From: Arthrobacter sp. SLBN-112
GTDB taxonomy: Bacteria > Actinomycetota > Actinomycetes > Actinomycetales > Micrococcaceae
NCBI RefSeq assembly: GCF_030944625.1
Contig: NZ_JAUSXY010000001.1
Location: forward strand, 3,286,001-3,350,000
Direction: 5' to 3'
Length of the DNA stretch: 64,000 nt
The position numbers and the translations under genes were made by a program. The notes beneath the pieces were generated by a model. That model was not told the DNA's origin, searched no databases, and saw only the letters and a program-made list of their open reading frames with translations. Below are positions 6,872 to 55,297 of this stretch, in pieces. The first letter of the stretch is position 1, and the number at the start of each line of letters is the position of its first letter.

Positions 6872-6894
6872 CGTGCCCGAGGTGGGACTCGAAC
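6872..6894. repeat. att-like core 1: copy of tRNA-Leu(CAA) 3' end
   Basis: These 23 bp (starting CGTGCCCGAGG, ending GACTCGAAC) are identical to the T-arm and acceptor 3' end of the tRNA-Leu gene at 55214-55236 and to 40767-40789. The rest of the tRNA is absent here. This is typical of an att site left by integration into a tRNA 3' end. Confidence 0.8.
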
Positions 6895-6986
6895 TGCATT
6901 CTAGGCCTTGCAAACATTGGGAACACAGTAGAACATCGGCAAACCAACCAGGTCCGAGCCATCTACGACGAGATCCGAAGCCAAAG

Positions 6987-7005
6987 GTGTTGACACTGTC
7001 AACAC
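6987..7005. repeat. 19-bp palindrome at element end, inner copy 1
   Basis: GTGTTGACACTGTCAACAC, 92 bp right of the att core. An identical 19-mer lies 92 bp right of the second core, at 40882. Confidence 0.8.
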
Positions 7006-7190
7006 CTTCCTTCTTGACTTTCCTGCAGTATCGTTGGCGTCGGCCCGGGAGCGCCAGATGACACCCTCCCCTTCACGATCAAGGCCCTACACGCGTGTTC
7101 GCCGCCAATACGTCAGTTGCCAGCAGTCAGCCACCGACAGCTCCAGCGCGAGACCACGTTCGGCCAACGGACACGGATTCGGTAGCGCCG

Positions 7191-7853
7191 TTACTGATCG
7201 CGGCTCGCCCACCGGAAGCCCCGCCTCATGAGCAGCTCGACTGGTGGTGCCGTGAGATCCTCAAGGTAGTGGCCAAGCGCGCTGTAGAAAACGCGACCTT
7301 CCCCCCACTTCTTGGTCCACGCCTGGGGCATGCGCTGCCCATCGAGCCAAGGCATATGCTCGCCGTCAAAAACGGTTTCCAGAAGCACGTGGTTGCCTGG
7401 GTCAACATTCATGTAGTACTGCTCGCTTGCCGCTCGGAAGTCGTTGATGCCTGCAGTAATTGGATGGTCCGGATCGACCACATATAGAGGGTACGGGTGC
7501 CGAACACCCTCCCCGGCGGGGTGGTAAAACACGTCGGCGCCGAGCATCATGTGATACATAACGCTGCCGCGAAACGCAGCGCCGCCGCCATGCCAGGAGA
7601 CAAATCCTGTACCGGACTGCACCGCACCGAGGAGTCTGGATTCCTGGGACGGGGTCAACGTTTCACTAAGCAGTGCGTTATTCCAATTATTGATGATGAG
7701 ATCGTAGCGGGTCAGGTCCTGATCAAGAACGAAAATGTCCGAGGATTCGTCTACCTCGAATGCAAGATCGTCCAGTACCTTACGGGCCCACTCCGCTACC
7801 CCATAGGGGTTATGGCCGGGCCAACCGCCGTAGAGATAGAGTGCCTTAGTCAT
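7191..7853 (-). CDS. ThuA-like domain protein
   Basis: A 220-residue protein of the ThuA (trehalose utilisation) family, which has a class I amidotransferase-like fold. The start at 7853 follows AGGAGG. Family features visible are MTKALYLYGGWPGHNPYG at the N-terminus, FVSWHGGGAAFRGSVMYHMMLG in the middle, and the C-terminal WGEGRVFYSALGH. ThuA proteins take part in metabolism of 3-keto sugars from disaccharides. It lies 75 bp downstream of an APC permease on the same strand, so the two probably form an operon. The 3-keto-sugar theme recurs in the GMC operon at 21-28 kb. Confidence 0.85.
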   Translation of the reverse strand: MTKALYLYGGWPGHNPYGVAEWARKVLDDLAFEVDESSDIFVLDQDLTRYDLIINNWNNALLSETLTPSQESRLLGAVQSGTGFVSWHGGGAAFRGSVMYHMMLGADVFYHPAGEGVRHPYPLYVVDPDHPITAGINDFRAASEQYYMNVDPGNHVLLETVFDGEHMPWLDGQRMPQAWTKKWGEGRVFYSALGHYLEDLTAPPVELLMRRGFRWASRDQ

Positions 7854-7928
7854 CGGGTTCCTCCTATGTTGGTTTTAGACCTCCGCAGGGCCGAGGGAAA
7901 GTGCGGTCGGCTACGAGAGCTTTATCAC

Positions 7929-9491
7929 TCATCGATCGGCGGCGATCCTCGTGGTTGCGGCCAGGGATGTCTTTGCCTTGCGGATGTTGTGGTGTTCGCC
8001 GGCGCCGCCGCCGATTTGGGTGTAGACGGTCGGTCTTGTCTTCCGCCACCTCAACCCCGTCAGGATCCCGGCGATCAGGATCGCGACGAGGAGGAGCTGT
8101 TCGCCGCTGGCTATCCACTGCGGCGCCCCGATCGACATTGAGAAGTGAATGGACGTCAGTGCGACGAGTAGGACGAGCCCGGCCAGGGCCAGGGATGGAG
8201 CAATGAGTGTGTTCCACATGCGTTCGGAATGGCGGATGATTCGGAAGTAACGCAGGGCCGAGATGGTCGTAAGAGTGAACAGGATCAGGAGAGCGAAGGT
8301 GCCGAGAGCGAACATCGACGAGTACATAGCGATAGCGTCAAGTCCAGTAAATAAAAAGGGCATAGTGACGAGGACTGCGGCCGCCGTCGCGGTCAGCGAT
8401 GCAAACGCGGGTGAACCGTGTTTACTGTGGGCTCTTCCAAGGGCAGACGGCAGGATTCGATCCTTTCCCAGTGAATAGAGGTAGCGGGAGAGCGAATTGT
8501 GCGTCGAGAGGGCCCCGGCGAAAACGCTGGTTACCACTAGAACAACCATGGCTTCGGTGAATGTGGCGCCCATGTAGTACTTGAATCCGCCATTGAAAAG
8601 GATCGTGGGGTTGGCGGCCCCCGCCGCTGCGACCTGATCCGGTCCCCAGAAAGTGACCAGGGCCCAGGACGTCAGGATGTAGAAGGCGCCAAGGCCGATA
8701 ATCGCGAGGTATGTTGCCCGGGGTATCGTCTTTTCGGGCTGTTTCACCTCGTCTCGATAAATAGCTGAAGACTCGAAACCCAGGAAGCAAGTAATCGCGA
8801 ACAATGTGGCAACTCCCAGTTCACCAGAAAAGACATGGGAGGGCTCAAAGGATTCGAACTGGTAACCCTTGGGCCCTCCTGACAGTAGGACCGGCATGTT
8901 GAAGAGCATGACCAAGGCGACTTCCATGACCATGAAAATGGCGAGGACCTTGCCGGATAGCTCCACATTGAAGTGTCCCAGGACAGTAATGATCATGCAG
9001 GCGATAGCACCCCAGACCCACCAGGGAATTTCGGGCCCTTGAAAGGCATCGAGAACGTTCCCGACGGAAACCCCGAAGAACGCGTAGCTGCCCACCATGT
9101 AAACGAGGTAAGTGACAGCGGCGAGAAACCCGGAGCCCAGTCCGATGGTTCGCGACAAACCTGCGGTGATGTACGTATAAAACGCACCAGGCTTAGGCAG
9201 GTTTCTTGTCATAGTTGTAAATCCGACAGCAAACAGCAGGAATATCAGTCCAACGAAGGCGTAGATCGCAGGGGTACCAATCCCGTTGCCCTGGGTGATG
9301 CCTAGGGGCAGCACTCCAGTCACGTTGCCGATAGGCGCAGACATGGCCAAAACAGTTAAGGCAAGCTGCAGGGTGCCCATGGTTCCCCGCAACCGTCCGG
9401 ATTCCGCGACCTGGTTAATGTACCTGCCCGTTCTCTCCCGGCCCAGCGTGTCCGTCCTTGGCGGTTGGAGATCCCTGCTCTCGATGCTCAT
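7929..9491 (-). CDS. APC-family amino acid or amine permease
   Basis: A 520-residue protein with about twelve transmembrane helices. The APC signature is plain: GTLQLALTVLAMSAPIGNVTG in helix 1, NLPKPGAFYTYITAGLSRTIG near helix 3, then CFLGFESSAIYRDEVKQPEKTIPRA in the middle, and SLGKDRILPSALGRAHSKHGSPAFA after helix 8. These match amino acid, polyamine and amine antiporters or symporters of the family. The substrate cannot be inferred. It is upstream of the ThuA-like gene on the same strand. Confidence 0.88.
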   Translation of the reverse strand: MSIESRDLQPPRTDTLGRERTGRYINQVAESGRLRGTMGTLQLALTVLAMSAPIGNVTGVLPLGITQGNGIGTPAIYAFVGLIFLLFAVGFTTMTRNLPKPGAFYTYITAGLSRTIGLGSGFLAAVTYLVYMVGSYAFFGVSVGNVLDAFQGPEIPWWVWGAIACMIITVLGHFNVELSGKVLAIFMVMEVALVMLFNMPVLLSGGPKGYQFESFEPSHVFSGELGVATLFAITCFLGFESSAIYRDEVKQPEKTIPRATYLAIIGLGAFYILTSWALVTFWGPDQVAAAGAANPTILFNGGFKYYMGATFTEAMVVLVVTSVFAGALSTHNSLSRYLYSLGKDRILPSALGRAHSKHGSPAFASLTATAAAVLVTMPFLFTGLDAIAMYSSMFALGTFALLILFTLTTISALRYFRIIRHSERMWNTLIAPSLALAGLVLLVALTSIHFSMSIGAPQWIASGEQLLLVAILIAGILTGLRWRKTRPTVYTQIGGGAGEHHNIRKAKTSLAATTRIAADR

Positions 9492-10187
9492 GGCGTCCTC
9501 TCAAATCAGTCAGTCGCAATGCACCCAACTTAGGGGCGCAGCAGCCGGTGACTCGCATCACTATAAGAAAGACTACAGACATTCTTCCTCTTATCAAACT
9601 TTCGCTTATGCGCGGTGCCTGATGGTGAACTTCAACTGAGTCAGCCTCGGTGCGCTCCATACTCAGATAGTTTCGGGGGTTCAACGGCCCAAGCAATACG
9701 ATGCGGTCCGGTAGCAACCCTCCGCCGCAGAAAGATCCACTTTCTCCTCGTCGACTTGGCCGCCCCTGGCAGAACAGGGGCGTTGGGAAGGGCACTGCGG
9801 GCGTCGTTGTTCACGTGCAATAGGAACAGTGCAAGCGGTTCAGAATTGTTCAATGTCTCTCCGACGTCGAGCCGCTGCGCGCAGTCTTAGCCGCAGCGGC
9901 ACTTCCAGGGTGTGCCGCCCAAGCCTTGAGGGCGTCCGATCGGCGCTCCGACAAGGAGCAAAGGAGTGAACGGGGCCGCTTGTGACCCGGGCCTTAGCAG
10001 CATAGATACTTTTAGCGTACGATCGTACACATAGGCTTCTGCCTTTGACGCCCGTAGCACGGGCCCCGTCTTCTACTCAGCCAAAAACCCCGCCCAGAAG
10101 GTTTCCCATGCACCATGGCCCCGGCCGATTTGCGAAACGCGTTTGGTCCCGTTCCAAAGCGGTAATGGATCACGCTGTATGCCGCCC
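9492..10187. other. Long intergenic region with no gene recognised
   Basis: No frame in these roughly 700 bp resembles a protein family. It contains the GTAC-type palindrome at 10017 and precedes a DeoR remnant, so it is probably promoter and decayed sequence. Confidence 0.55.
10017..10028. promoter_or_regulatory. GTACGATCGTAC palindrome, candidate TetR operator
   Basis: A perfect 12-bp palindrome identical to the one at 28518 in front of the TetR gene at 28629. It is in the gap between the divergent APC permease and MFS genes, suggesting that they share control with the GMC operon. Confidence 0.5.
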
Positions 10188-10403
10188 TCAGCCAATATGC
10201 ACAGTTACGCCATCAGAGAGCAGGTCATCTCTCAGCTGCGCACTGACGTTGTCGTCTGAGACGGGCTCGCCGATCTCACTCAAGCTGCCGACGCACGCGA
10301 TTCCAGAGCGGTCGAACTTGCTGCTGTGCAAGACCACGATCTTTCGTAGGGCCGAGGTGAGCATCCCGCTGTCCAACGCGCTGCGTCCTAAGTCGGCACC
10401 CAC
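10188..10403 (-). pseudogene. Remnant of a DeoR-family repressor (C-terminal piece)
   Basis: A 71-residue fragment ending in a stop at 10188. The segment ALRKIVVLHSSKFDRSGIACV followed by LSEIGEPVSDDNVSAQLRDDL matches the end of the DeoR effector domain (typically VVLADSSKFG and then a TD--S-L pattern). No helix-turn-helix or upstream effector-domain half is present; the MFS gene begins just to the right on the other strand. It is most likely what remains of the regulator of this transporter or of a lost sugar operon. Confidence 0.65.
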
Positions 10404-10451
10404 TTTTGCTTTCGTGTGAAACCCTCAGCAGCTATCTGGAAGGACAACCCC

Positions 10452-11702
10452 ATGCCTTACGACAAAGACTTAACCCAGCCGCCGCTTAAGCGCGCCAGGA
10501 TGGGTGCGTTCGGCGTATTTACGATCGTTGGTTCTCTCACGGCCGTCTGGCTGGTGAACATTCCGGATATCCAGGAGCGTACCGGGACCTCACATGCCGT
10601 TTTGGGTGGGCTAATCCTGCTCCTGGGACTGGGGGCGCTGGTGTCCATGCAGTTTGCGGGGTTGCTCATTAGAAAGTTCGGTAGCCGTAACTCCGTGCTC
10701 CTGGGACTCGTCTTACTCGTTTTGACCGTCAACCTTCCTGGTCTTGCCACCGATGCATTCTCATTGGGCGTAGCCTTGTTCGTTTTTGGCCTGGGCCATG
10801 GGATTACTGACGTGGCAATGAACCATCATGCGGTAGTCGTGGAGCGCAGTTACGGCAGACCCATTATGTCGGCGTTCCATGCTTTCTACTCCCTGGGTGG
10901 AGCATTGGGCGCTGTGGCTGCAGCCGGAGCACAAACACTTGAGGTCGGTCTCCAGGAAATCCTTCTGTCCGCGGGCATTCTCGGTGCTGTGGGCGCTGCA
11001 ATCTCTGTCCCGGCACTCCTTGGGGTCCGTAATGAAGTCAAACTTGACACGGCAGGTCACGGCAGCGAAGACACCTCCGGAACGGCGCCAGCTCCGAAGA
11101 AAGCCCGCAGGGGTCAGGTAGCCACGCTCGCGGTTTTGGCTTTCCTCATTCTGCTGTCGGAAGGGGCTGCAAATGACTGGAGCGCACTCCAGACAGTGGA
11201 GCACCTTAAACAGCCTGAATCGGCGGCCGCACTGGCCTATGGCGCTTTCGCTTCAGCCATGACCATCGGCCGGTTATTGGCGGACAAAGTTTCACACGCA
11301 GCCGGTCCAGTTCATGTGGTCCGCTACGGGTCCTTGATGGCCGCGGCCGGGATGCTGGCAGTTGTTTTGTCCTCGTCCTACCCCCTGTCGATTCTAGGAT
11401 GGGTGCTGTTTGGGCTGGGTTTGTCAGGCATCATTCCGCAGATCTACACAGCAGCCGGGGTAGCTGGACATTCGGATGCAGGCAAGACGCTGTCCAGGGT
11501 GGTGAGTTCCGGCTACGTGGGTTTGCTGGCAGGCCCTGCCTTGATCGGGTGGCTGGGCAGTCTCATGGGACTTACGGCAGCCTTTGTAGTGCCGCTGCTC
11601 TTCTGCGCAGTGGGGTTGGTTCTTGCCAAGGCCGTCGCCGCTGAAGCCGAAACAACTGACCAAAAGCCCGTTCCCGCCCTGCTTTCGGACGGGGACCGGT
11701 AG
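10452..11702 (+). CDS. MFS transporter, YbjJ/fucose-permease-like
   Basis: A 416-residue MFS protein. The start at 10452 is preceded by GGAAGGA; an earlier in-frame ATG at 10416 has no clear ribosome site. The N-terminus KRARMGAFGVFTIVGSLTAVW followed by NIPDIQERTG resembles the YbjJ-type branch. FGLGHGITDVAMNHHAVVVE in helix 4 is another hallmark of that group. A basic loop (KKARRGQ) separates the two six-helix halves. It faces a Gfo/Idh/MocA oxidoreductase convergently. The substrate is unknown; relatives include sugar and catabolite exporters and importers. Confidence 0.85.
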   Translation: MPYDKDLTQPPLKRARMGAFGVFTIVGSLTAVWLVNIPDIQERTGTSHAVLGGLILLLGLGALVSMQFAGLLIRKFGSRNSVLLGLVLLVLTVNLPGLATDAFSLGVALFVFGLGHGITDVAMNHHAVVVERSYGRPIMSAFHAFYSLGGALGAVAAAGAQTLEVGLQEILLSAGILGAVGAAISVPALLGVRNEVKLDTAGHGSEDTSGTAPAPKKARRGQVATLAVLAFLILLSEGAANDWSALQTVEHLKQPESAAALAYGAFASAMTIGRLLADKVSHAAGPVHVVRYGSLMAAAGMLAVVLSSSYPLSILGWVLFGLGLSGIIPQIYTAAGVAGHSDAGKTLSRVVSSGYVGLLAGPALIGWLGSLMGLTAAFVVPLLFCAVGLVLAKAVAAEAETTDQKPVPALLSDGDR

Positions 11703-11716
11703 CTGCCGACGGTGCG

Positions 11717-12742
11717 CTACCGTCGTACGTGGTTGACGGGCTGGCGCTTACCGCTGGACGCGGCTTCGAGGATGGAAAGGCAGATGGCCAAATTATTGGC
11801 TGCGTCCACTCCATCAACGATTGGACGTGCTCCCTCCTGGACGGCTTCGTGAAACCGTAAAAGGGTGATGTCGTAGGTGTGCCGCCTGTCTGAGACTGGC
11901 ACCTCACGGGTTCCCGTAGAGTCGCTGAGAACTACGGTGCCCAGGGGCTCCGGTGTCATCACGTCGTGGCCGAGGATGCTGCCCGCCTCACCATTGATGC
12001 GAAGGTACGACGGCGTAAACGGCATTGTGAAGGAATCCTGAAAGTCCACCAGCACTTCGCCCTCATAGTGGATCGACGAGCTGCACGCGTCCTCGATATC
12101 CGATGTACCCCAAGGACCATGCGATACCGCTGACGCGACGACATCAAGGGGCACCTGCCCTTCGAGCAGCGGGTTCACGACGGAGGCGTTATGGCAGGAC
12201 AGGTCCATCACTACTCCGGCGCCGGGGCTGTTGCTCAGCCGCCAACTCCTTAGCCGTTCCGGCAGAAGTGTGGAATGGCGGACGTTGATGCTCAAGGGCT
12301 TGCCGATCGATCCTGCCGTGACCATTTCGCGGATTTTGCGATGGGTCCCTGCCGCCGGCAGGTGGTGGTTGACGGCCAATACCAGGCCGCTGGCTTCCGC
12401 TGCTGCCTGCATCTCCAGGGCATCGCTGAGCACCGTAGCCACGGGCTTTTCGCAGAGAACGTGTTTTCCCGCGGCGAGTGATGACAACGTTTGGAAGTAA
12501 TGCTGGTCGTTGCGACTTGAGATGTACACCGCGTCGACTGCAGGATCGTCCAGTGCCGTCTGCAGGTCCCAGTGATGGCGAAGGATTCCGTTGCGGATGG
12601 CGTAGGTTTCGGCGTGTGACTTATCAGCACTGATTACGCTGGCGATGCTGTCCCCGACGCGGCGAATGGCTGGGACCATCCGTGTGGCCGCTATGTCGCT
12701 TGCCCCGATCAGGGCCCAGACAAGTGGCTTGACGCGGTTCAT
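11717..12742 (-). CDS. Gfo/Idh/MocA-family NAD(P)-dependent oxidoreductase
   Basis: A 341-residue dehydrogenase. The Rossmann start WALIGASDIAATRMVPAIRR, VDAVYISSRNDQHYFQTLSS, and the signature HVLCEKPVAT with the catalytic-site lysine are all present; VNHHLPAAGTHRKIREMV continues the fold. Such enzymes oxidise or reduce sugars, inositols and keto sugars. The ATG overlaps the stop of the small membrane protein upstream (ATGA), so they are translationally coupled. It ends the leftward dehydrogenase region that begins with the HisD-like gene, although a hairpin at 12989 separates it from mmsA. Confidence 0.9.
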   Translation of the reverse strand: MNRVKPLVWALIGASDIAATRMVPAIRRVGDSIASVISADKSHAETYAIRNGILRHHWDLQTALDDPAVDAVYISSRNDQHYFQTLSSLAAGKHVLCEKPVATVLSDALEMQAAAEASGLVLAVNHHLPAAGTHRKIREMVTAGSIGKPLSINVRHSTLLPERLRSWRLSNSPGAGVVMDLSCHNASVVNPLLEGQVPLDVVASAVSHGPWGTSDIEDACSSSIHYEGEVLVDFQDSFTMPFTPSYLRINGEAGSILGHDVMTPEPLGTVVLSDSTGTREVPVSDRRHTYDITLLRFHEAVQEGARPIVDGVDAANNLAICLSILEAASSGKRQPVNHVRR

Positions 12743-12942
12743 TTCTTCCCAGCCCGTCCTTTCTTGCCGGAATCAGGCGTCGGCCGCTCAAGGTGTGTCA
12801 TCGACACCGCTGTCAATCCCCCGGCACCGACCATGAGCATCAGTAGTCCGGCTGCCAAGGCAAGCGTTGCAGACGCCGTAACGCAAAGGACCAATCCGGC
12901 CGTTGCGGATGCCAGCATCAGTCCCGTGAAAAGTCTGACCAT
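12739..12942 (-). CDS. Small two-helix membrane protein, function unknown
   Basis: A 67-residue protein from the ATG at 12942, which has GGAGAG 4 bases upstream; longer starts at 12951 and 12981 are less well supported. It is almost entirely two hydrophobic helices (about residues 3-22 and 25-45) with a basic tail ending GKKGRAGKK. It overlaps the oxidoreductase start by 4 bp. I do not recognise the family. Confidence 0.6.
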   Translation of the reverse strand: MVRLFTGLMLASATAGLVLCVTASATLALAAGLLMLMVGAGGLTAVSMTHLERPTPDSGKKGRAGKK

Positions 12943-12988
12943 GGGGCTCTCCATTCTTGGTGAAGCTAAAAAGGGATACATGAAACGG

Positions 12989-13024
12989 CTTCAGGGTGGT
13001 CCGCCATGGCGGACCACCCTGAAG
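12989..13024 (-). terminator. Strong hairpin downstream of the mmsA-type gene
   Basis: A perfect 17-bp stem, CTTCAGGGTGGTCCGCC with its complement, around a 2-base loop. It lies just after the aldehyde dehydrogenase stop. There is no clear T-run, so it may terminate or may stabilise the upstream message. Confidence 0.6.
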
Positions 13025-13042
13025 ATCGGACCTGAAGTGGCG

Positions 13043-14551
13043 TCAGTTGGAGGGGAAGTTGTAGGAGGCGCCGGAGGCGTGGTGGGTTTCGGGCCAGCGG
13101 GAGGTGACGACTTTGCCGCGGGTGTAGAAGGAGACGCCTTCGGGGCCGTAGATGTGCTTGTCGCCGAAGAGTGAGGCTTTCCAGCCGCCGAAGGAGTGGT
13201 AGGCCACGGGGACGGGCAGGGGCACGTTGATGCCGATCATGCCGACGGTGACACCGCGCTGGAACGTGCGGGCGGCGGCGCCGGAGGAGGTGAAGATGGC
13301 GGTGCCGTTGCCGTAGGGGTTGGCGTTGATGAGCTTGATGCCCTCTTCCAGGGTGTCGACGCGGACCACGACGAGGACGGGTCCGAAGATTTCCTCCTGG
13401 TAGGCGGTCATTTCGGTCTTGACGTGGTCCAGGACGGTGGGACCCACCCAGAAGCCGTTTTCGTGGCCGGGGACCACGAGGTCGCGGCCGTCCACCACCA
13501 TGGCGGCGCCGGCGGTTTCGGCTTCGGTGACGATCCGGACGATGCGTTCCTTGGAGGCGGGGGTGATGACCGGGCCCATTTCGGCGCCGGGGGCGGTGCC
13601 GTTGTTGACCTTCACGGCCAGGGCGCGCTCTTCGACTTTCTTGACCAGCAGGTCGGCGGCGTCCCCGACGGCTACGGCGACGGAGATGGCCATGCAGCGT
13701 TCCCCGGCGGAGCCGAAGGCGGCGGCGGCGAGGTGGTCGGCGGCGTTGTCCAGGTCGGCGTCGGGCAGGATGATGGCGTGGTTCTTGGCCCCGCCCAGGG
13801 CCTGGACGCGTTTGCCGTGCTTGGTGGCGGTCTCGTGGACGTACTGTGCGATCGGGGTGGAGCCGACGAAGGAGATGCCGTCCACGTCCGGGTGGGTCAG
13901 CAGCCCGTCGACGGTTTCCTTGTCCCCGTGCAGTACCTGGAACACGCCGTCCGGCAGGCCGGCTTCCTTCCAGAGCTTGGCGAGCAGCAGCGAGGCGGAG
14001 GGGTCGCGCTCGGAGGGCTTGAGGATGAACGCGTTGCCGGTGGCAATCGCCATCGGCGCCATCCACAGCGGCACCATGACGGGGAAGTTGAACGGGGTGA
14101 TCCCGGCGACGACGCCGAGCGGCTCACGGAAGGAGAAGACGTCGATGCCGGTGGAGACCTGGTCCGAGTAGTCACCCTTGAGCAGGGTGGGGATGCCGCA
14201 GGCGTACTCGACGACTTCCAGGCCGCGGCCGATTTCGCCCTTGGCGTCGGAGAGGACCTTGCCGTGCTCGGCGGTAACCAGTTCCGCGAGTTCGTCAACG
14301 TGCGCGGCGACCAGTTCACGGAACTTGAACAGCACGGCGGTGCGCTTGGCCAGGGAGGTGTCACCCCAGGTGTCGGCGGCCTTGCGGGCCGCGGCGACGG
14401 CGGTATCCAGGTCGGCACGGTTGGCCAGCCGCAGCTCACCGGAGACAGCGCCGGTGGCCGGGTTGTACACGTTCGTGGTGCGGTCGCCCTCACCGGCAGT
14501 CCCGGCACCGTTGAGGAAATGGTTGATAGTGGTCAACGTTGTAGTGGTCAT
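13043..14551 (-). CDS. mmsA: CoA-acylating methylmalonate-semialdehyde dehydrogenase
   Basis: A 502-residue aldehyde dehydrogenase of the MmsA/IolA type, which converts malonate or methylmalonate semialdehyde to acetyl- or propionyl-CoA with NAD and CoA. Diagnostic segments are EHGKVLSDAKGEIGRGLEVVE, GITPFNFPVMVPLWMAPMAI, LKPSERDPSAS, LGGAKNHAIILPDADLDNA, and the catalytic cysteine in GSAGERCMAISV. The length is normal. It is downstream of the iron alcohol dehydrogenase, which could supply its aldehyde. Its unusually even GC-rich codon use differs from that of the upstream genes. Confidence 0.93.
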   Translation of the reverse strand: MTTTTLTTINHFLNGAGTAGEGDRTTNVYNPATGAVSGELRLANRADLDTAVAAARKAADTWGDTSLAKRTAVLFKFRELVAAHVDELAELVTAEHGKVLSDAKGEIGRGLEVVEYACGIPTLLKGDYSDQVSTGIDVFSFREPLGVVAGITPFNFPVMVPLWMAPMAIATGNAFILKPSERDPSASLLLAKLWKEAGLPDGVFQVLHGDKETVDGLLTHPDVDGISFVGSTPIAQYVHETATKHGKRVQALGGAKNHAIILPDADLDNAADHLAAAAFGSAGERCMAISVAVAVGDAADLLVKKVEERALAVKVNNGTAPGAEMGPVITPASKERIVRIVTEAETAGAAMVVDGRDLVVPGHENGFWVGPTVLDHVKTEMTAYQEEIFGPVLVVVRVDTLEEGIKLINANPYGNGTAIFTSSGAAARTFQRGVTVGMIGINVPLPVPVAYHSFGGWKASLFGDKHIYGPEGVSFYTRGKVVTSRWPETHHASGASYNFPSN

Positions 14552-14633
14552 GCTTGGTCCTTTGAAATTGGGTTTGTGGTCGGATACCGCGCCACGAAGG
14601 GAAAGGCTGTGTCGGAGCCACTAGGCATGGGGC

Positions 14634-16108: not shown

Positions 16109-16176
16109 TGGTGTGGGTCGGTCCGTAATGGCTGTCGGTGCGGCTGCGAAGGCTGAGCGTTCGCGGCTTTATGCGT

Positions 16177-47057: not shown

Positions 47058-47246
47058 GACAAAAAACCTCGCAATCATCGAGCAAGCTGCCATCTGCTAG
47101 ACAATTGGGTCGCTGCTACTTTCCCTTGAAGGAGACCTACGAAAGGTCCCCTCCCATCGAGGATATGCCTGGGAATGACAGTGCGAAAGGCCAGCTACTG
47201 AGTGACATACCAAGTGGGAAAAGGGTGGGAGTGCTCTAATACTCCT

Positions 47247-47573: not shown

Positions 47574-47611
47574 GCAGCCCGCCAGAACTGCGCCTATAAA
47601 GGCCCAACAAG

Positions 47612-47623
47612 CGGTCGTTTTTG
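47612..47623 (+). repeat. CGGTCGTTTTTG repeat, copy 2
   Basis: Identical to 45338 and 48340; followed by ATGTCC. Nearby CCAGAACTGCGCCTAT shares its two halves, in reverse order, with the sequence just after copy 3. Confidence 0.6.
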
Positions 47624-47737
47624 ATGTCCGCAAAGGCTGTGCGCAGGCTCCCCATGAATCCGTCATTTTCAACCCTTTAGTTCGTGATTGGGATTTCATT
47701 GCTCCCTCGGAAAGAGCAGAGAACGTATTGTCAGCAC

Positions 47738-48301
47738 GTGAGCAACTTAAATATCGAGAGTCCAGGAGTCGGCGCAGCGAAGGACGTGGCGAGTAATCGG
47801 CGCATAAAGTACGCACGTCCACTAGTTGAGAAAGGATTCACCTTCGGCCCGCTGACTCGCGAGGATTGGCCCGCAGTCAATGGTCTCGTCAGAAAATACA
47901 TCAGTGTGCCTGCCGACTGGAGGCTGACGCCGAACAGCCTCGGGATCGTCGTCAAGAATTCCAAAGGCGCTCTTGTAGCCGCCGTCGTAACTCAGGTCAT
48001 GACCATAGACGGCAAGACGCTGCTGATAGTGAGCCACCTGGTAACCGACCCTCTACACCGCGGCAGAGGTATGGCAACAATCCTTCTCGGCATGCTCGAC
48101 AACATCACGGGTACCGCCGGCGCTCCTGCCCCAGCTATGACGGTTGGCTTCTGCGCTCATGCCGGCATTAAGCTCTACCGACGAGCGGGTTTCGTCGTAG
48201 GCGACGCCAACAGCTACACCGAACCAGATCCGGAGCTTCCGTTCCCACGCATGGTCACAGAGAACTCGAACTACCCCTATCCGTTCTACCGCGCCTGGTA
48301 G
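47738..48301 (+). CDS. GNAT-family N-acetyltransferase
   Basis: About 187 residues from a GTG at 47738; an upstream GTG at 47684 keeps the frame and neither has a clear ribosome site. The acetyl-CoA site is in SHLVTDPLHRGRGMATILLGML, with the R-G-x-G-M-A pattern of motif A, and CAHAGIKLYRRAGF is the usual motif B end. TREDWPAVNGLVRKY marks the N-terminal strand and helix. The substrate is unknown; it may be a resistance or toxin-type acetyltransferase given the mobile setting. Confidence 0.75.
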   Translation: MSNLNIESPGVGAAKDVASNRRIKYARPLVEKGFTFGPLTREDWPAVNGLVRKYISVPADWRLTPNSLGIVVKNSKGALVAAVVTQVMTIDGKTLLIVSHLVTDPLHRGRGMATILLGMLDNITGTAGAPAPAMTVGFCAHAGIKLYRRAGFVVGDANSYTEPDPELPFPRMVTENSNYPYPFYRAW

Positions 48302-48339
48302 CGCTCTAGGTACGACAGAACGGGGAGTTGTCCCAGAAC

Positions 48340-48351
48340 CGGTCGTTTTTG
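48340..48351 (+). repeat. CGGTCGTTTTTG repeat, copy 3
   Basis: Identical to 45338 and 47612; followed by ACGTCC. It lies in the short gap after the GNAT gene. Confidence 0.6.
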
Positions 48352-48383
48352 ACGTCCCTTGAGTCTCTCGTGTCGGGCGCCTA

Positions 48384-48647
48384 TCAGAACTGCTTGTGGA
48401 TGGCTGATCCGTCGCCGTGAAAGATCAGGATGCGGCTTTGGCCGTCGATCCAGACCCAGAAGTAGCTGGCATCTTCGCTGATTTCGTCCACGGTGCCTTG
48501 TTCGGCCGCGAATCCGTGTCGTTTCACAATCACGCGGTCGCCGGGGTTGAGGTGGACCCAGTTGTGATAGCTCAGTGGCTGGGCTCCCACTGTCACCGTT
48601 GGCCGGTCAGCCATTTGTGCGCCTGCAATCATTGCTATTCCTTTCAT
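48384..48647 (-). CDS. Small hypothetical protein with a beta-barrel-like core
   Basis: About 87 residues from ATG 48647 (GGAAG 7 bases upstream) or slightly shorter from 48632. The body HNWVHLNPGDRVIVKRHGFAA, then GTVDEISEDASYFWVWIDGQ, has the alternating pattern of small SH3-like barrels and is reminiscent of translation- or cell-wall-type KOW/SH3 modules. No membrane segment. Function is unknown. Confidence 0.55.
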   Translation of the reverse strand: MKGIAMIAGAQMADRPTVTVGAQPLSYHNWVHLNPGDRVIVKRHGFAAEQGTVDEISEDASYFWVWIDGQSRILIFHGDGSAIHKQF

Positions 48648-48748
48648 ACTGGTCTTCCGCACGTCGCTCAGCTTCAGTAGGGACGCTTCGCATTTCCCGG
48701 TTACCACCTTGCCTGGGCGGCATTGCTGACAAACGTGGATATAAGGAA

Positions 48749-48775
48749 GCGGGGCGTGCATTGTGCACGCCCCGC
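48749..48775 (-). terminator. Hairpin downstream of the kdgT-type gene
   Basis: GCGGGGCGTGCA and TGCACGCCCCGC form a perfect 12-bp stem with a 3-base loop, 18 bp beyond the permease stop. Confidence 0.75.
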
Positions 48776-48793
48776 CCACTTCCTTTAGTACTG

Positions 48794-49831
48794 CTAGGTC
48801 AGTTCCGGGGTACTACCTACATGCTTGGGGGCTGGCGCCTCCTGCTGGGGGGAGTTCTCTTCGATGTCCTGGAGACGGTCCTTTTTCTGCACCCTCTTTG
48901 CCCATGCTGAGGTCACGAGCGGGCAGAGGACCGCGGAGACGACGACCGAGGCTGCGACGAGGACGGTGGCGTGTTCTGCTGCCGGGGCGTAGACGGGGTT
49001 GGCGGTGGCGATGATTGCGGGAACGAGTGCGGCGTTGCCGGCTGTGGTTGCTGCCGCGAGGCCGGCTACGCCGTCGCCGCCGGTGAGTTTGTCGGCGAGG
49101 AGGAGCACGGCGCCGCCGACGAAGACCACGAACAGGCCGAGTGCGATGCCGAGCAGGCCTGCTTCGACGACGGCGTTGAGGTTGATGGTCAGGCCGAGGG
49201 CCAGGCCCAGGAACGGCACCATGGCCGGTACCAGTGGGGCCAAGAGATGCCGCATGTTTTTATCGAGGTTCCCGAGGAGCATGCCCAGGGCCAGCGGGAG
49301 AATGGCGCCGACGAGTGCCTGCCAAGGGAAGGCCGACAGGCCGGCGATGCCGAGGGTGACCATGGTCAGGAAGGGGCCTGATTCCAGGGACAGGATGGAG
49401 TAGGCGCCGGCGTCGCGTTTGCGGCCGAACTGCCCCATCAGTGAGATGTAAAGCCCGCCGTTGGTGTCGTTCAGGGCGGCAACCAACGCGAGGGTCGACA
49501 GGCCGGCCAGGATTCCGGAGTCGATGGGGGCCTCGCCGAGGAACCGCCCGGCGATGACGCCGATGAGGATCGCGAAGAGAATTTTGGAACCGAGGAGCAC
49601 CCCGCCCTTCTTGAGGATGTAGGGCGTTGATTTGACCTCGAGTGTCGCGCCGAGGCAGACGAAGAACACGGCCAGCAGCGGCGCCAGGCCGGTGAAGAAG
49701 GCACCTGTGAAGGAACCGAAGAACTTACCGGCGTCCGGGGCCAGGGTGTGGATGACGGCACCGATGCCCAGGGGCACCAGCATCATGCCGCCGGGGACCT
49801 TCTCCAGAGCTTTCTTGATGGGAATCGACAT
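48794..49831 (-). CDS. kdgT: 2-keto-3-deoxygluconate permease family transporter
   Basis: A 345-residue KdgT-family proton symporter with ten predicted helices. The start [39 protein letters not shown] and the late [21 protein letters not shown] are characteristic. Family members import 2-keto-3-deoxygluconate or related aldonates. It is the last gene of a leftward operon with a zinc dehydrogenase, acid-sugar kinase and RuBisCO-like protein, so the true substrate is more likely an apionate, threonate or similar branched or four-carbon acid. Confidence 0.9.
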
Positions 49832-49902
49832 TGATTTCTCCTAGTGAATAGCTGATTGGTTGGGAACTGCGGTTCGGACCGTCAGTTCCGTTGCTTGTGG
49901 GG

Positions 49903-50946
49903 TTAGCCGAGGCCTGGGATGAGCAGGACTTTGCAGGCATCGCCGGTGAGAAGCTCCACGGCGTCGTCGATCTCGCTGAGCTTCTTGCGGTGGGTGATGA
50001 GCCAGTCGAGCTCCAGCTTTCCGGAGTCAAGCAGCAGCAGGCTCTGTTCCCAGGTTTCCCAGAGCCGGCGGCCGAAGATCCCGCGAAGGGTGATGCCCTT
50101 TTTGTTGATGTAGGCGGCGATGTCGACCTCTGCGGGGCGGCTGGGGTGTCCGACGGTGATGACGGTCGCTTCGCGGCGGACGGCGTCGAAGAGAGTGGTC
50201 AGCGTGCCGGGGGCTCCGGAGCATTCGAAGGCGACGTCGAAGCCGCCGCGCCGGCCGGTGAGTTCGCGGCAGCGTTCGACAATGCCGTCGCTGGGGTGCA
50301 GTGCGGTCGCGCCGAGTTTTTCGGCTTGGGCGCGGCGGTAGGGGTTGGGATCGACGGCGATGACATGGGAGGCGCCCATGAGCAGTGCCAGGTTCACGAC
50401 CACGAGCCCGACTGGGCCCGCGCCGCTGACGAGCACCGCCCTGCCCGCGACGGAGTAGTTGGCGCGCTGGATGGCGTGGACGGCGACGCCTGCGGCTTCG
50501 AGCAGTGCACCGGATTCGAGGGACAGGCCGGTGGGGAGCTTGACGCAGATGTCCTGGGGGACGGCCGCGTATTCGGCGAAAACACCGTCGATGTGCATGC
50601 CGAGGATGCCGGTTCGTTCGCAGGTGTGGGCGTCACCGGTGCGGCAGGGAAAGCACTGGCCGCAGGTCAGGTGGCTTTCAAGGGCGACCTGGTCGCCCAC
50701 CTTCAGGCCGGTGACCCCGGGGGCGACCTCGACGATGGTTCCTGCGCCTTCGTGGCCGAGGATGACCGGGAGGTTGAGGTTGAAGGCCTGGGCCGACGGG
50801 GTCCATTCGTAGAGTTCACGGTCCGTGCCGCACAGGGAGGCCGCGCCGACTTCAATGACGACATTGCCTTCCGTTGCCTTGGGATCGCCGGCGTCGGTGA
50901 CGTACGTGACGCCTCGTTCGGCTGCGTTTTTGACTACTGCCCGCAT
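49903..50946 (-). CDS. Zinc-dependent alcohol dehydrogenase (MDR family)
   Basis: A 347-residue medium-chain dehydrogenase. The catalytic zinc cysteine is in ASLCGTDRELYEW and the histidine-glutamate pair in ILGHEGAGTIVEV; the structural zinc is bound by CGQCFPCRTGDAHTC; the Rossmann motif is VSGAGPVGLVVV. It lies 51 bp downstream of the kinase gene. In this operon it probably oxidises the imported polyol acid to the 3-oxo acid that the kinase then phosphorylates. Confidence 0.92.
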   Translation of the reverse strand: MRAVVKNAAERGVTYVTDAGDPKATEGNVVIEVGAASLCGTDRELYEWTPSAQAFNLNLPVILGHEGAGTIVEVAPGVTGLKVGDQVALESHLTCGQCFPCRTGDAHTCERTGILGMHIDGVFAEYAAVPQDICVKLPTGLSLESGALLEAAGVAVHAIQRANYSVAGRAVLVSGAGPVGLVVVNLALLMGASHVIAVDPNPYRRAQAEKLGATALHPSDGIVERCRELTGRRGGFDVAFECSGAPGTLTTLFDAVRREATVITVGHPSRPAEVDIAAYINKKGITLRGIFGRRLWETWEQSLLLLDSGKLELDWLITHRKKLSEIDDAVELLTGDACKVLLIPGLG

Positions 50947-50997
50947 GGGGGCCGCCTTTCGTTGGTTCTTGATGCGTGGAGGAAATTGTGTGGAGTG

Positions 50998-52296
50998 TTA
51001 GGCGGGGAGCTGGCCGGCGAAGCGGCGCAGGATGTCGGTCGGTCCGACCTGTCCGCCCTTGAGCAGCAGCCGGCACCCGCCGACGGCGGAGGCGCCATCG
51101 GCGCGGAGAATGGGGCCGGCGGTGACGAACTGGTCCGATACCCGCAGTTGGCGCACGCCCATGGCGATAAGTGCGTGGCTGGAGGTATCGCCGCCACAGA
51201 CGGCGATGTCCCGGGTAAGCCCGGCATCGGCCATGCGGGCAGCAATGCCGCCAATCAACGTGCCGACGTACCCGGCGTCCACTGGTGTGCTTGCCCCGTA
51301 GCGTGGGTCAGCTGCGCCGCGGGTGGTGTGAACGACGACGTTGCGCCCTGCCCGGAGCGCGGCGGAAACGCGTTCATCCAGGGCGGCGACCAGGGCCGGG
51401 TCGTCGCTCTGCAGCAGCTCGGCAGGGACCGGGACGTCCTCCCAGCCATGGGAGGTTGCGTCGTTGATCTGCTCCGCTGTGGTGCTGGAGGCTGAGGCGC
51501 TGACGGCCAGCACCGGCCCGGAGGGCTTCTGCCGGCCGGGGGTGCGTGCAGCTTGGTCCGAGATGGACCTGGCCAGCGCGGCCATGATGCCGCCGGATCC
51601 GACCACGATCGAGGGACCGTGACCGTGCTCTTCCCGGGTGAGTGCTTCTGCGACCGCGTCCATGTGGTGTTCGTCGACGGCGTCAACCACGAAGGCCTTC
51701 GCCCCGGGTTCCCGCCTCCGGTCCGCCCAGGCATCCTTGAAGGTTCCGTCGTCATAAGCCGGCAGATGGATGGCCCCCGGTACCTGGTCGTCACCGAGCT
51801 GTTCGGTCAGGACCTGACGCAGGTCCGCTTCGGACATGGGTGTTGAAGGGTGGCGGGACATGACCGGGTGGCGGTCCAGCCGGTAAATCTGGCCGGCGTA
51901 GGTTGCGTAGTGGTTGCTGAAGGCGGTGTAGCGGCCGAAAGCGGGTTGGGCCGGGACGACCGGGATGGGTCCGTGCAGCGGGAACTGTTCGTGGAGCAGC
52001 TGGATACCGCGGCCGATGCTGCCGATGGTGGTGGAACTGTCGAAGGTGGAGCAGACCTTGTAGAGCAGGACCTCCAGGTTCAGCGTGGCGATGCCTGCAA
52101 GGTCACGGGTGACCAGGTTGTCGAAGGCCGTGCCGGACAGGGAACGGGCAGGCCCGGCGAACCCGACGACGTCGGTGTCCGTGGGCAGTGGGGCGTCCCC
52201 GATGACCAGGGCGGCTTCGAGCCCGTAGCGGTGGGCTTGGGCGAGGACGTCGGCGGCTCCGGTGAGGTCGTCGGCGACGAAACCGAAAGCGGGCAT
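50998..52296 (-). CDS. Four-carbon/branched acid sugar kinase (DUF1537 family, OiaK-like)
   Basis: A 432-residue kinase with the two DUF1537 domains. The N-terminal substrate domain begins PAFGFVADDLTGAADVLAQA, with the conserved ADDLTGA, and contains KVCSTFDSSTTIGSIGRGI. The C-terminal nucleotide domain has VVVHTTRGAADPR and VCGGDTSSHALIAMGVRQL. The start at 52296 overlaps the RuBisCO-like gene by 3 bp, with AAAGG upstream. Family members phosphorylate 3-oxo-isoapionate, threonate, erythronate or similar acids; its neighbour favours 3-oxo-isoapionate. Confidence 0.9.
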   Translation of the reverse strand: MPAFGFVADDLTGAADVLAQAHRYGLEAALVIGDAPLPTDTDVVGFAGPARSLSGTAFDNLVTRDLAGIATLNLEVLLYKVCSTFDSSTTIGSIGRGIQLLHEQFPLHGPIPVVPAQPAFGRYTAFSNHYATYAGQIYRLDRHPVMSRHPSTPMSEADLRQVLTEQLGDDQVPGAIHLPAYDDGTFKDAWADRRREPGAKAFVVDAVDEHHMDAVAEALTREEHGHGPSIVVGSGGIMAALARSISDQAARTPGRQKPSGPVLAVSASASSTTAEQINDATSHGWEDVPVPAELLQSDDPALVAALDERVSAALRAGRNVVVHTTRGAADPRYGASTPVDAGYVGTLIGGIAARMADAGLTRDIAVCGGDTSSHALIAMGVRQLRVSDQFVTAGPILRADGASAVGGCRLLLKGGQVGPTDILRRFAGQLPA

Positions 52297-52297
52297 G

Positions 52298-53545
52298 TCA
52301 GGCACCTTTCGCGAATGTCTGGACTGCGTGCAGGAGAGCATCGTCCCCGGTGTGGGCGAGCGTGTCCGCTGCGCTCTGCAGCGGCACTCCGTCGACGGCC
52401 GCTTCCCAAGCCTGGCGGAGGCTGCGCACTCCGGCTCCGGGTCCGTCCGGGTGGGCGGCGACTCCGCCTCCGGCGAGCATCATCAGGTCTGTGGAGCGTA
52501 CGGCCTCGAAGGTGGGGCCCGGGGTGGTGACGTTCTGCCCGGACGACAACACGGGAAGCGGTGCGATGGTCTGTCCGAGAGGTGCGAGCAGGCTTCGGAT
52601 GTTAGAGGCCACTTCTTCGTCGAGTTCGTAGAACTTGCTGCCCAGCCCGCTGGCGTGCAGGTGGTCGGCGCCGGCCAGGCGGGCCATCTGCTGCCAGACC
52701 CGGTAATCCATGCCCAGGGCCTTGGACCTCATGGAGGCCGCGAGACCGGCCCGGTGGCCGTGGATAGGAACCTCGGCGAAGCTGCGCAGCAACGCCAGGG
52801 CAGGCAGCCCCATCACGGGAATGTTCAGCATCACGCAGCGGCCGCCGGCCTCGACGACCAGGTCGTGGCGCTTTTGCAGGCCTGCGAGGTCGCCGGTGAT
52901 GTTGAAGGCGTACATGGTCGAGTGGCCGGTGACCTGCTCGGCTGCCCGGATCTCTTCGGTGGCGACTGCGACCCTGCGTTCCAGCGGCAGATAGGCCGGG
53001 TCAGTCATGAGTTCATCGTCCTTGATCAGGTCAATGGACGCCATCGCCAGATCCCGGACCACCAGTCGGAATTCATCTTCGGAAAGCCCGACGTTGGGCT
53101 TAACGATGGTGCCGACCATCACGCCCTGGACGTCGCTGATGAGCTTACGGGTCCCCTCGATACCGAAGGCCGGACCCGGGTGGGCGGCGACGAAGTCCTC
53201 CGGCAACTGAATGTCCTGAAGACGACAGGCGTAAAGATCGCCCAACTCGAAAAGATTGCCTGCAATCGCTGTCTGCAGCGTTGCCAGGTCGGTGCCGACG
53301 TTCTCCATCGGGAAGTCCACGGTCACCAGTGCAGCCCGGACCTTTTCCGGGTTCGCCCGTGATGGCAGAGAAGGGCGGCAAAAGCCCAGTTCCTGCACAT
53401 CCGAGATCCGGGCCGCGTGCCGCTCCCGGATCCGGGCGGATTCACCCGGCACCGGCAGGAAGGTGCCGCTGGACTGTTCGCCGGCCATGATGGCGGCGGC
53501 CTTTTCCGGGTCAATTTCAGATTCTAGGTAGTAGGTGCAACGCAC
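52298..53545 (-). CDS. RuBisCO-like protein (form IV), OiaX-like
   Basis: A RuBisCO-fold protein of about 415 residues. ESEIDPEKAAAIMAGEQSSG and the later FPMENVGTDLATLQTAIAGN form the N-terminal domain; IVKPNVGLSEDEFRLVVRDL and IDLIKDDELMTDPAYLPLE give the barrel's lysine and acidic ligands (KDDE replaces the KxDE of true RuBisCO); IHGHRAG follows. Together with a DUF1537 kinase this fits OiaX, which acts on 3-oxo-isoapionate 4-phosphate. The start is unclear: a GTG at 53545 gives the usual length, whereas the ATG with the best ribosome site (53574) is out of frame. Confidence 0.87.
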   Translation of the reverse strand: MRCTYYLESEIDPEKAAAIMAGEQSSGTFLPVPGESARIRERHAARISDVQELGFCRPSLPSRANPEKVRAALVTVDFPMENVGTDLATLQTAIAGNLFELGDLYACRLQDIQLPEDFVAAHPGPAFGIEGTRKLISDVQGVMVGTIVKPNVGLSEDEFRLVVRDLAMASIDLIKDDELMTDPAYLPLERRVAVATEEIRAAEQVTGHSTMYAFNITGDLAGLQKRHDLVVEAGGRCVMLNIPVMGLPALALLRSFAEVPIHGHRAGLAASMRSKALGMDYRVWQQMARLAGADHLHASGLGSKFYELDEEVASNIRSLLAPLGQTIAPLPVLSSGQNVTTPGPTFEAVRSTDLMMLAGGGVAAHPDGPGAGVRSLRQAWEAAVDGVPLQSAADTLAHTGDDALLHAVQTFAKGA

Positions 53546-53709
53546 CGAGCGCGGGGTCGCGCATGGAACTCTCCAATGTGGGGGCTTGAAACTTACGTAT
53601 CCGACTTTCACCTGCAGGTACTTTCACTTCGCTCACGCGCCGATGCGGGCTCAAGCAGGTGACTCGGGACTTCGCGTTCACGGCATCCTCTGTGACCCGG
53701 GAACCAAAG

Positions 53710-53734
53710 TTGTCCGTACCTTTGATACGTACAA
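53710..53734. promoter_or_regulatory. Inverted repeat in the RLP/GntR divergent promoter
   Basis: TTGTCCGTA (53710-53718) and TACGTACAA (53726-53734) are inverted with one mismatch and a 7-bp spacer. The position between the divergent RuBisCO-like and GntR genes suits a GntR operator. Confidence 0.5.
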
Positions 53735-53834
53735 TAGTAGGTGGTGCGGATCACGTCAAGACCGCCCCACGACACTGAATCCGCCGCGTGACCAACCTGA
53801 GGGCTAAGATGTGCACAGCGACAGAGGAGTCAAT

Positions 53835-54701
53835 GTGAGCGTGGAATCAACAGAGTCAGCGGCGGAGCAGGCGGGACGCAGCAGCCCTCTGAACCGGGAA
53901 GGCGGGGGCCCTCTCCACGCCCAAATCCGGGACATCCTGCACCGGCAAATCGTCGACATGGGACTTTCCCCAGGCTCTTCGCTACCCACCGAAGAGGAAC
54001 TGCAAAGACAGTTCGGCGTCTCCCGCAGCGTGGTACGCCAGGCGTTGTCCGGCCTCGCTGACCTGGGCCTGATTCGCCGCCAGCGCGGCCGCGGCAGCGT
54101 CGTAGCCGCTACACCAGTCCTCCGCCGGCATGTCCAGCGCGCGGGCGGCCTGGACGAACAGGCCGCAGCACACGGCCAGCGCCTCCGCACCCACGTCCTC
54201 ACCGTGGAACCGGCCGAGCCTCCCCTGGCCGGCATCGAGGCCCTCAACACCACCAACACCTGGAAGATCGAGCGGGTTCGCTACCTCGACGACCTTCCTG
54301 TGGCATTCATGCGGACCTGGGTCCCTCGCGACTTCTTCCCGCACTTCACCGTCGAACTGCTGGAAGATGCGTCCCTGTTGAGCCTGATGCGGGACCACGG
54401 CTACCACCCCGCCGGCGGCCCCCGCCAAGTACAGGCAGTCTCATCGGATCCCGACCTAGCCGGGAAGCTCAACATCAACACGCGCGAACCGCTGCTGCTG
54501 CTTCAAGGAGTTACCCGCGACGCTCTCGGCCATGGCCTCGAGTGGTTCAACGTCTGGCACAGCCCCAACACCGTTTTCGATGTCGACGCACAAGTTACAA
54601 CCCAGCCCGGAGGCGTCTCCCAAGAGCACATCCGCCGCCTTCGGACCCTGACCCAGCAACTGGAATCTGAACTATCAGATCTTGAGCGAGGGGCACACTA
54701 A
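53835..54701 (+). CDS. GntR-family regulator with UTRA domain (HutC subfamily)
   Basis: A 288-residue regulator from the GTG at 53835, which follows GAGGAG; a start at 53811 is less likely. The winged helix reads GPLHAQIRDILHRQIVDMGLSPGSSLPTEEELQRQFGVSRSVVRQAL, and the UTRA effector domain runs from about residue 110 (WKIERVRYLDDLPVAFMRTWVP) to the end. It is divergent from the RuBisCO-like operon and presumably responds to an acid-sugar intermediate. Confidence 0.92.
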   Translation: MSVESTESAAEQAGRSSPLNREGGGPLHAQIRDILHRQIVDMGLSPGSSLPTEEELQRQFGVSRSVVRQALSGLADLGLIRRQRGRGSVVAATPVLRRHVQRAGGLDEQAAAHGQRLRTHVLTVEPAEPPLAGIEALNTTNTWKIERVRYLDDLPVAFMRTWVPRDFFPHFTVELLEDASLLSLMRDHGYHPAGGPRQVQAVSSDPDLAGKLNINTREPLLLLQGVTRDALGHGLEWFNVWHSPNTVFDVDAQVTTQPGGVSQEHIRRLRTLTQQLESELSDLERGAH

Positions 54702-55213
54702 AGGCTGCGATGCCGCCGCACAGAGTCACCTCTTGACGGAAACGTTGAATCCCGACACCCCGCGGGAGCGCAACTGCCGAACAAACAAAGTTGCGGGATA
54801 CTTGCCGCGCCTCGCGCCCGTGTGTACCAATTCCCGCGGTTTCGAGACTCTTGGGGCGCGGGCTTCACCGGGCGCTTCATTCTCCGTGCCAGTCTTCTGC
54901 GTGTCGTCGACGCGACGCTCCGGTGCACCTGGAACCGAATGCAGCTCAAACTTAACGACGGTCTGCGCATGAGGTGCCTGAAACCGTGTCACATCATGAC
55001 GCTAATTCCGGCGACCTCCAGGAAAGGCCTAGTCAGGCACCATCGGACCGGCAGCCAGAGAACTATGGCACGTTGCAGAGTCGGCGGCAGCATGCAGCCC
55101 TCTGCGGGGCGGCCGGAAGCTACTTATTAAGGACTGGAGAACACCCGAAGCGGGAAAGTGTCAAGCTTTGTCAACACTACTCAGCTTAAAAAGCTTCTGA
55201 CCTGCGGAAACAC
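54702..55213. other. Gene-free right end of element B
   Basis: About 500 bp without a recognisable gene. It carries the end repeat AAGCTTTGTCAACAC (55163-55177), 36 bp before the tRNA-derived core, as at the other two junctions. I do not see the outer palindrome here. Confidence 0.55.
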
Positions 55214-55215
55214 CG

Positions 55216-55297
55216 TGCCCGAGGTGGGACTCGAACCCACACACCTTTCGATACCGCATTTTGAGTGCGGCGCGTCTGCCAATTCCGCCACTCGGGC
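55216..55297 (-). tRNA. tRNA-Leu (anticodon CAA)
   Basis: A complete class II tRNA on the minus strand. Acceptor GCCCGAG (at 55297) pairs with CTCGGGC, followed by discriminator A; CCA is not encoded. The anticodon stem CCGCA/TGCGG encloses CTCAAAA, giving CAA. A long variable arm is present, and the T-arm contains GTTCGAGTCCC. Its 3' 23 bp (55214-55236) recur at 6872 and 40767, marking it as the insertion target of the elements to its left. Confidence 0.95.

Follow-up and report, generated by a model that had tools for sequence, protein, structure and literature searches.

We describe here a stack of elements beside the tRNA-Leu(CAA) gene of Arthrobacter sp. SLBN-112, in a stretch of 64,000 nucleotides (contig NZ_JAUSXY010000001.1, positions 3,286,001 to 3,350,000; the window) of a genome of 4,386,623 bp on a single contig (G000; congeners are coded Gnnn). 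The stack most probably results from repeated site-specific recombination at the 3' end of this tRNA gene by the integrase family of an integrative and conjugative element (ICE), a family that is absent from the stacked elements themselves.

The tRNA 3' end forms a 23-bp core, CGTGCCCGAGGTGGGACTCGAAC, that occurs exactly and on one strand at three places in the window, one of them at the intact gene (Table 1). Exact searching thus bore out the two distant copies reported in the original prediction, and no further copy is present in the window at up to 4 mismatches. The prediction's count of three elements and cores in tandem proved too low: a genome-wide search (up to 2 mismatches) found one extra core, with 1 mismatch and on the same strand, at genome positions 3256620-3256642. 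This corresponds to window coordinate -29380 (positions below 1 lie to the left of the window), 36 kb left of core 1, and this genome has four or more cores. ARAGORN finds a single tRNA in the window.

Such tandem stacking is ordinary in the genus. Across congeners we compared an exact 19-bp core and found at least two copies in 118/141 good-quality genomes and at least four in 69/141. The exact cores of a genome lie all on one strand (18/18 genomes examined) and bound different elements, which rules out that they are common dispersed repeats. They span 548 kb in G066, 10 of them extend over 387 kb in the single-contig genome G098, and the largest count, in the draft genome G019, reaches 16. 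When 22 core-to-core elements were compared, they ranged from 3.4 to 36 kb and differed in gene content. The use of the tRNA 3' end as an insertion site for islands, as originally suggested, looks site-specific, with elements of different content bounded by cores.

Two cores of the window sit in an att-like (attachment) module of about 520 bp that extends about 115 bp beyond the core on its right side. A third copy surrounds the fourth core (genome 3256236-3256760), and copies are 76-77% identical to the copy at 40767. Related sequence had been predicted to the left of each core; this holds at 6872 and 40767, but at the tRNA core (55214) it is limited to about 75 bp, so that element B ends in a right arm of a different type. 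Gene calling found no genes in the window's module copies, and Rfam over 40300-41000 gave a single match far below its cut-off (18.9 versus 73.5 bits). The possibility that the tRNA-like stretch GCCAGGGACTTGAACCC of the module is a second core or an RNA gene was dropped, there being one tRNA in the window and no Rfam match near cut-off. A stretch resembling a tRNA T-arm, at 6720-6765 and 40615-40660, ranks with the module's most conserved blocks. A profile search over 136 kb around the window detected in addition a partial left arm at -28844 and the start of a right arm near -48721 that is soon interrupted. This interrupted start (locus L005, 5296-5319, window about -48704) keeps the first half-palindrome, and an open frame that by eye resembles an IS110-type transposase comes next.

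The module matches 143/150 congeners at E≤0.001 and 117/150 at 1e-20; the 26 weaker matches may reflect the tRNA end and a short arm alone, and 117/150 is the safer count. An exact 22-bp pattern from the module occurs in 15 stretches of GTDB contigs, whose records all bear the name Arthrobacter or Pseudarthrobacter. The same narrow test gave no match in IMG/VR, and the module has no match among PLSDB plasmids. In 52 modules, near-invariant blocks are separated by variable spacers, a pattern that suggests selection on the module.

Module ends and integrase-bearing ends share putative arm sites at fixed distances from the core. The site TGTNNACA (its forms include TGTACACA, TGTCAACA and TGTCCACA) lies at -44/-45 in right arms of both the module type and the integrase type, the latter having an additional site at -66. 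Module right arms also carry a palindromic pair near -368/-359, and left arms a pair at +116/+125. We quantified this in 83 de-duplicated distal cores from 26 genomes, a non-random set picked because it had already been fetched. TGTNNACA occurs at -47 to -42 in 66/83 (mean of 0.06 in 200 plain shuffles), and a left-arm site at +115 to +117 or +124 to +126 in 77/83 (shuffle mean 0.1). A left-arm site was also found at the next core of 9/10 integrase-bearing segments read. Left-arm sites are thus common to modules and integrase-bearing elements, whereas the main right-arm family is not: it comprises 53 of the 83 distal right arms, is absent from 30/30 integrase loci and, away from the core, does not resemble the right arm of the ICE. 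A second family accounts for 7 of the remaining arms, 2 are of integrase type (G131 and G100), 5 fall into three small pairings and 16 stand alone.

What integrase could act at these sites? Integrase matches at E≤1e-60 are present in 62/150 genomes; 43 are full-length, unbroken and at least 72% identical to the query, the rest being fragments, broken copies and more distant proteins. We fetched 30 integrase loci and checked their tRNA with ARAGORN. In every one, the start codon lies 88-89 bp from the 19-bp core of an intact tRNA-Leu(CAA) gene. Four more integrases (G145, G129, G116 and G020) lie about 88-90 bp from the core by coordinates, so that the place is the same in 34/34 checked, 9 of the 43 being unchecked. 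Genomes with the integrase have more exact cores than genomes without it (mean 5.1, n = 42, versus 3.4, n = 92; Mann-Whitney p = 2e-5, uncorrected for kinship or assembly; 7 genomes with broken integrase copies set aside). SLBN-112 has no match to this family. A search of solved-structure sequences with the integrase gave 12 sequences, the best being 3nkh (2.7e-12), over the catalytic part. The absence of an integrase from the SLBN-112 stack was correctly predicted, since both PF00589 proteins of the genome lie elsewhere; it has a likely explanation in the one integrase family that occupies the same tRNA in congeners.

The integrase-bearing element is probably an ICE, because 17/19 integrase-positive genomes have a MobF relaxase on the array side of the tRNA, at a distance of 18-104 kb. 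Among 14 other genomes, 12 have no such relaxase, G077 has it elsewhere and G163, which the integrase search did not cover, carries it at 1251767. The integrase-bearing element of G131 measures 97.7 kb core to core and encodes domains of a TrwC-type relaxase-helicase, a TraG/TraD coupling protein and TrbL/VirB6; coupling protein and TrbL/VirB6 homologues were also read in G026, while a VirB4-like ATPase gave matches below cut-off only. A truncated integrase stands at the distal core of the G131 element, and in both G131 and G100 broken integrases have been displaced to distal cores. We considered an integron-like, fixed integrase gene and dropped it in view of these displaced copies and of the conjugation genes on the neighbouring element. 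The G131 element also carries a gene cluster that by eye resembles a contractile phage tail, about 55-81 kb from the tRNA (contig C108, L203-L205). Five plasmid integrases, from four Paenarthrobacter and one Arthrobacter, are 62-64% identical to the ICE integrase and reside on large plasmids (e.g., CP000476.1, 276443-277567); in the stretch read for each of the three fetched, no tRNA-Leu core occurs at up to 3 mismatches.

In the fetched loci, the arm variant matches the N-terminus of the integrase. Near-core arm variants of the 30 loci fall into CAAC (18), TACA (10) and CCAC (2). Integrase residues 14 (S/A; K/Q; T) and 19 (L/V; R; C) split the three variants in 30/30, and residues 5, 6 and 28 split TACA from CAAC in 28/28. 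On a tree of the C-terminal part of the protein, the arm variant requires 9 changes, at least 4 of these being forced by well supported branches, and the variant labels are hardly clustered (as low in 39/200 shuffles).

Several observations weigh against this picture. (i) Arm sites and integrase start lie within about 100 bp, and linkage alone could keep them together. (ii) One of the two CCAC types, L115, has the CAAC-like residues R5 and K6 together with S28, which is seen in one TACA type. (iii) Pfam recognises the catalytic domain of the integrase and finds no N-terminal arm-binding domain. (iv) The main family leaves out the right arms of 30/83 distal cores, and 16 of these resemble no other arm. 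(v) For the middle of the module right arm, three integrase-bearing regions offer no clear counterpart. Among the first 60 rows of matches, similarity recurs at the arm palindromes and is otherwise short and scattered, and the right arm as an origin of transfer (oriT) common to the ICE was rejected on this basis. (vi) The relaxase is missing near the tRNA in 2/19 integrase-positive genomes, being elsewhere in G017 and absent from G139. (vii) Distal variants ignore the resident integrase type: among 57 cores, genomes with a TACA integrase have 12 TACA and 12 CAAC distal modules, genomes with a CAAC integrase have 10 CAAC and 10 TACA, and 13 are others or none. The idea that modules are tuned to the resident integrase is unsupported by these counts. 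Because the distal variants do not follow the resident integrase, the stacks look like accumulations from several sources.

What is the mechanism of stacking? The ICE integrase, which lies beside the tRNA in many congeners, would recombine at the tRNA 3' end. The integrase-less elements would retain att ends made of a core and fixed arm sites on either side, and we infer that the ICE integrase could act on them in trans, excising them or inserting them, either at the tRNA or at a core already in place. Stacked elements could also be transferred joined to the ICE, by accretion and mobilisation. In SLBN-112, the stack would have been kept and the ICE lost. The elements resemble cis-mobilizable elements (CIMEs). 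Segment A is flanked by arms on either side, and segment B, with a core at each end, has a short arm on the right; a PF00589 integrase, the tyrosine integrase that a mobile genomic island would carry as its own, is lacking from both. No homologue of the ICE relaxase was found anywhere in SLBN-112; the search there covered neither other relaxase families nor genes for type IV secretion.

The module elements might even be a lineage that did not arise by decay: free of integrase, provided with its own att module, kept by selection throughout the genus and served in trans by the ICE recombinase, in a cassette-like system whose cargo measures kilobases to tens of kilobases. We put this forward tentatively, as a serious possibility short of an even chance. 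Alternatively, the stacked elements could be passive remnants of old ICEs, classical CIMEs formed by decay, that inherited their att ends by descent and move only with an adjacent ICE. Passages in PMC5704250 and PMC7563491 describe CIMEs as decayed ICEs or integrative and mobilizable elements (IMEs) that kept their att sites and often lie distal to an ICE. The broken integrases beside distal cores of G131 and G100 would fit such decay, as would the lack of a relaxase homologue and of a third tyrosine recombinase in SLBN-112. Yet the right arms of 53/83 distal cores belong to a single family, which differs from the ICE right arm away from the core and is found at none of the 30 integrase loci, and the near-invariant blocks and variable spacers of the modules suggest selection. 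We regard this reading, of passive remnants that move only with an ICE, as less likely than not.

Repeated recombination by the ICE integrase family must also be weighed against recombinases that are present in SLBN-112. Its two tyrosine recombinases (PF00589), both outside the stack, are apparently XerC and XerD, judging from the pair of high-scoring matches in each of 19 genomes and not from a phylogeny. Segment B carries a small serine resolvase and A a broken one, and none of the PF00239 matches of the stack is a large serine integrase. XerC/XerD or the resolvases are improbable movers of the elements, since fixed-distance arm sites fit an arm-binding tyrosine integrase and arm variants match the N-terminus of the ICE integrase. 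Inspection by eye of the 25 gene clusters shared most widely among 22 elements, a weak test, showed no resolvase-like protein. Growth of the stack by homologous recombination or duplication is likewise improbable. Modules of about 0.5 kb in direct orientation would permit unequal exchange, but the elements between cores differ in content and length, and modules of 76-77% identity enclose cores that are exact or nearly so and equal to the tRNA 3' end. Least probable of all, the elements would be satellites packaged by phages, which the about 41% identity of Arthrobacter phage integrases might suggest; their widely varying sizes, the narrow IMG/VR test without a match and the conjugation genes of the integrase-bearing neighbour speak against it.

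Segment A, predicted to be a single 34-kb element, is indeed bounded by exact cores, but it is possibly composite. A gene cluster at its right end is homologous to core-to-core elements of G163 (9.5 kb, 91% identical), G114 (9.4 kb, 84%) and G026 (15.4 kb, 85-94%). The same cluster occurs in G006, where no core was found within the 20 kb read, with an identical left edge in array and non-array copies. Thus, cargo moves by other routes too, a further point against the integrase as sole carrier. As the cluster exists both in core-bounded elements and free of cores, segment A may have arisen by fusion, one core having been lost, or by the addition of cargo to an element. Compared with G026, 4.9 kb of the cluster are 94% identical and 2.9 kb beyond the tRNA are 89% identical, which hints at exchange between species.

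Table 1. Features of the tRNA-Leu(CAA) stack (window coordinates; distances in bp from the core named).
Feature	Position	Strand	Basis
tRNA-Leu(CAA), intact, attachment target at 3' end	55215..55297	-	ARAGORN
Core copy 1, tRNA 3' end	6872..6894	+	exact match
Core copy 2	40767..40789	+	exact match
Core copy 3, overlaps 3' end of intact tRNA gene	55214..55236	+	exact match
Right part of element whose left core is at -29380	1..6871	.	
Segment A, between cores 1 and 2; no tyrosine recombinase or ICE-relaxase homologue found; possibly composite	6895..40766	.	
Segment B, core 2 to tRNA: DUF6414, resolvase, Ltp-repeat lipoprotein, weak GNAT match, GntR/UTRA, others	40790..55213	.	
Gene cluster at right end of A, homologous over most of its length to cargo of congener core-to-core elements	32231..40295	.	
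Degenerate serine recombinase, matched in two pieces, left of A's shared cluster	31755..32058	+	
Small serine resolvase in B, PF00239, 196 aa; not a large serine integrase	44636..45226	-	
Att-like module 1: right arm of left-hand element 6488-6871, core, left arm of right-hand element 6895-7012	6488..7012	.	module similarity
Att-like module 2: right arm 40384-40766, core, left arm 40790-40907	40384..40907	.	module similarity
Short right arm of element B beside tRNA	55161..55213	.	left-of-core sequence groups with distal arm of G026
Palindromic pair TGTGGACA/TGTCCACA, -368/-359 from core 1	6504..6520	.	
Putative arm site TGTCAACA, -44 from core 1	6828..6835	.	
Palindromic pair TGTTGACA/TGTCAACA, +116/+125 from core 1	6988..7004	.	
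Palindromic pair TGTGGACA/TGTCGACA, -367/-358 from core 2	40400..40416	.	
Putative arm site TGTCAACA, -44 from core 2	40723..40730	.	
Palindromic pair TGTTGACA/TGTCAACA, +116/+125 from core 2	40883..40899	.	
Putative arm site TGTCAACA, -45 from tRNA core	55169..55176	.	

Further features were noted in and around the stack. The Ltp-type lipoprotein repeat gene of segment B contains tandem 141-bp repeats (46284-46565). A toxin-antitoxin-like pair (Doc/Fic-like and ribbon-helix-helix-like, by eye) lies at -30441 to -29870, just left of the fourth core, and Doc/Fic-like toxins paired with a small antitoxin, again by eye, are found near the left ends of a few integrase-less elements, including those of G163, G069 and G077. 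In the island region of SLBN-112, two genes in opposite orientation (-52715 to -51684 and -18088 to -17087) have identical first 30 residues. Malate synthase was tried as the left chromosomal border and failed, being found in 2/20 genomes.

The stack belongs to a genus-wide case of islands that seemingly rely on the integrase of another element, and it bears on how recombinase-free islands spread: it suggests that cargo islands can do so by borrowing a foreign integrase. With its three arm variants and the N-terminal residues that match them, the integrase family offers a natural experiment on arm-site specificity, and the cores provide precise element boundaries in a region rich in metabolic cargo of soil bacteria.

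In the attP sites of lambda-type, arm-binding tyrosine integrases, a core is flanked on both sides by arm sites at fixed distances. The layout of core and putative arm sites described here is alike, with a sequence and spacing of its own. By analogy only, the stacks also resemble integrons and CALINs (clusters of attC sites lacking integron-integrases), the latter being described as arrays without integrase in a passage of PMC11389934: in both, integrase-less cassettes lie in a single orientation and arrays exist without an integrase. They differ in that each unit here has a tRNA core flanked by arms and carries cargo on the scale of kilobases to tens of kilobases; no search aimed at attC-type sites was made. 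In Dehalococcoides, many islands lie in tandem at ssrA with a 20-bp repeat; according to parts of PMC3146451, 16 of these islands have a serine recombinase and 15 lack an integration module and were proposed as possibly cis-mobilizable. The tandem arrangement at one small-RNA gene is shared, whereas in Arthrobacter the integrase is of the tyrosine type and belongs to a conjugative neighbour, and gene calling found no genes in the modules. Closest are the CIMEs, which, as passages in PMC5704250 and PMC7563491 have it, lack integrase and transfer genes, keep their att sites and form stacks at the target gene, in a position distal to an ICE or IME. Among the matches listed in open-licence literature, we found no description of such a system in Arthrobacter or Pseudarthrobacter. 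As in ICE-CIME accretion of the ICESt1/ICESt3 type in Streptococcus, integrase-less, att-bounded elements are stacked at the target gene; the Arthrobacter stacks are deeper (the 10 exact cores of G098, up to 16 in G019), they occur in most genomes of the genus, and their main right-arm lineage is unlike the end of the resident ICE. ICE-CIME accretion itself is known; its genus-wide scale here, and a module lineage not seen beside the integrase, look new.

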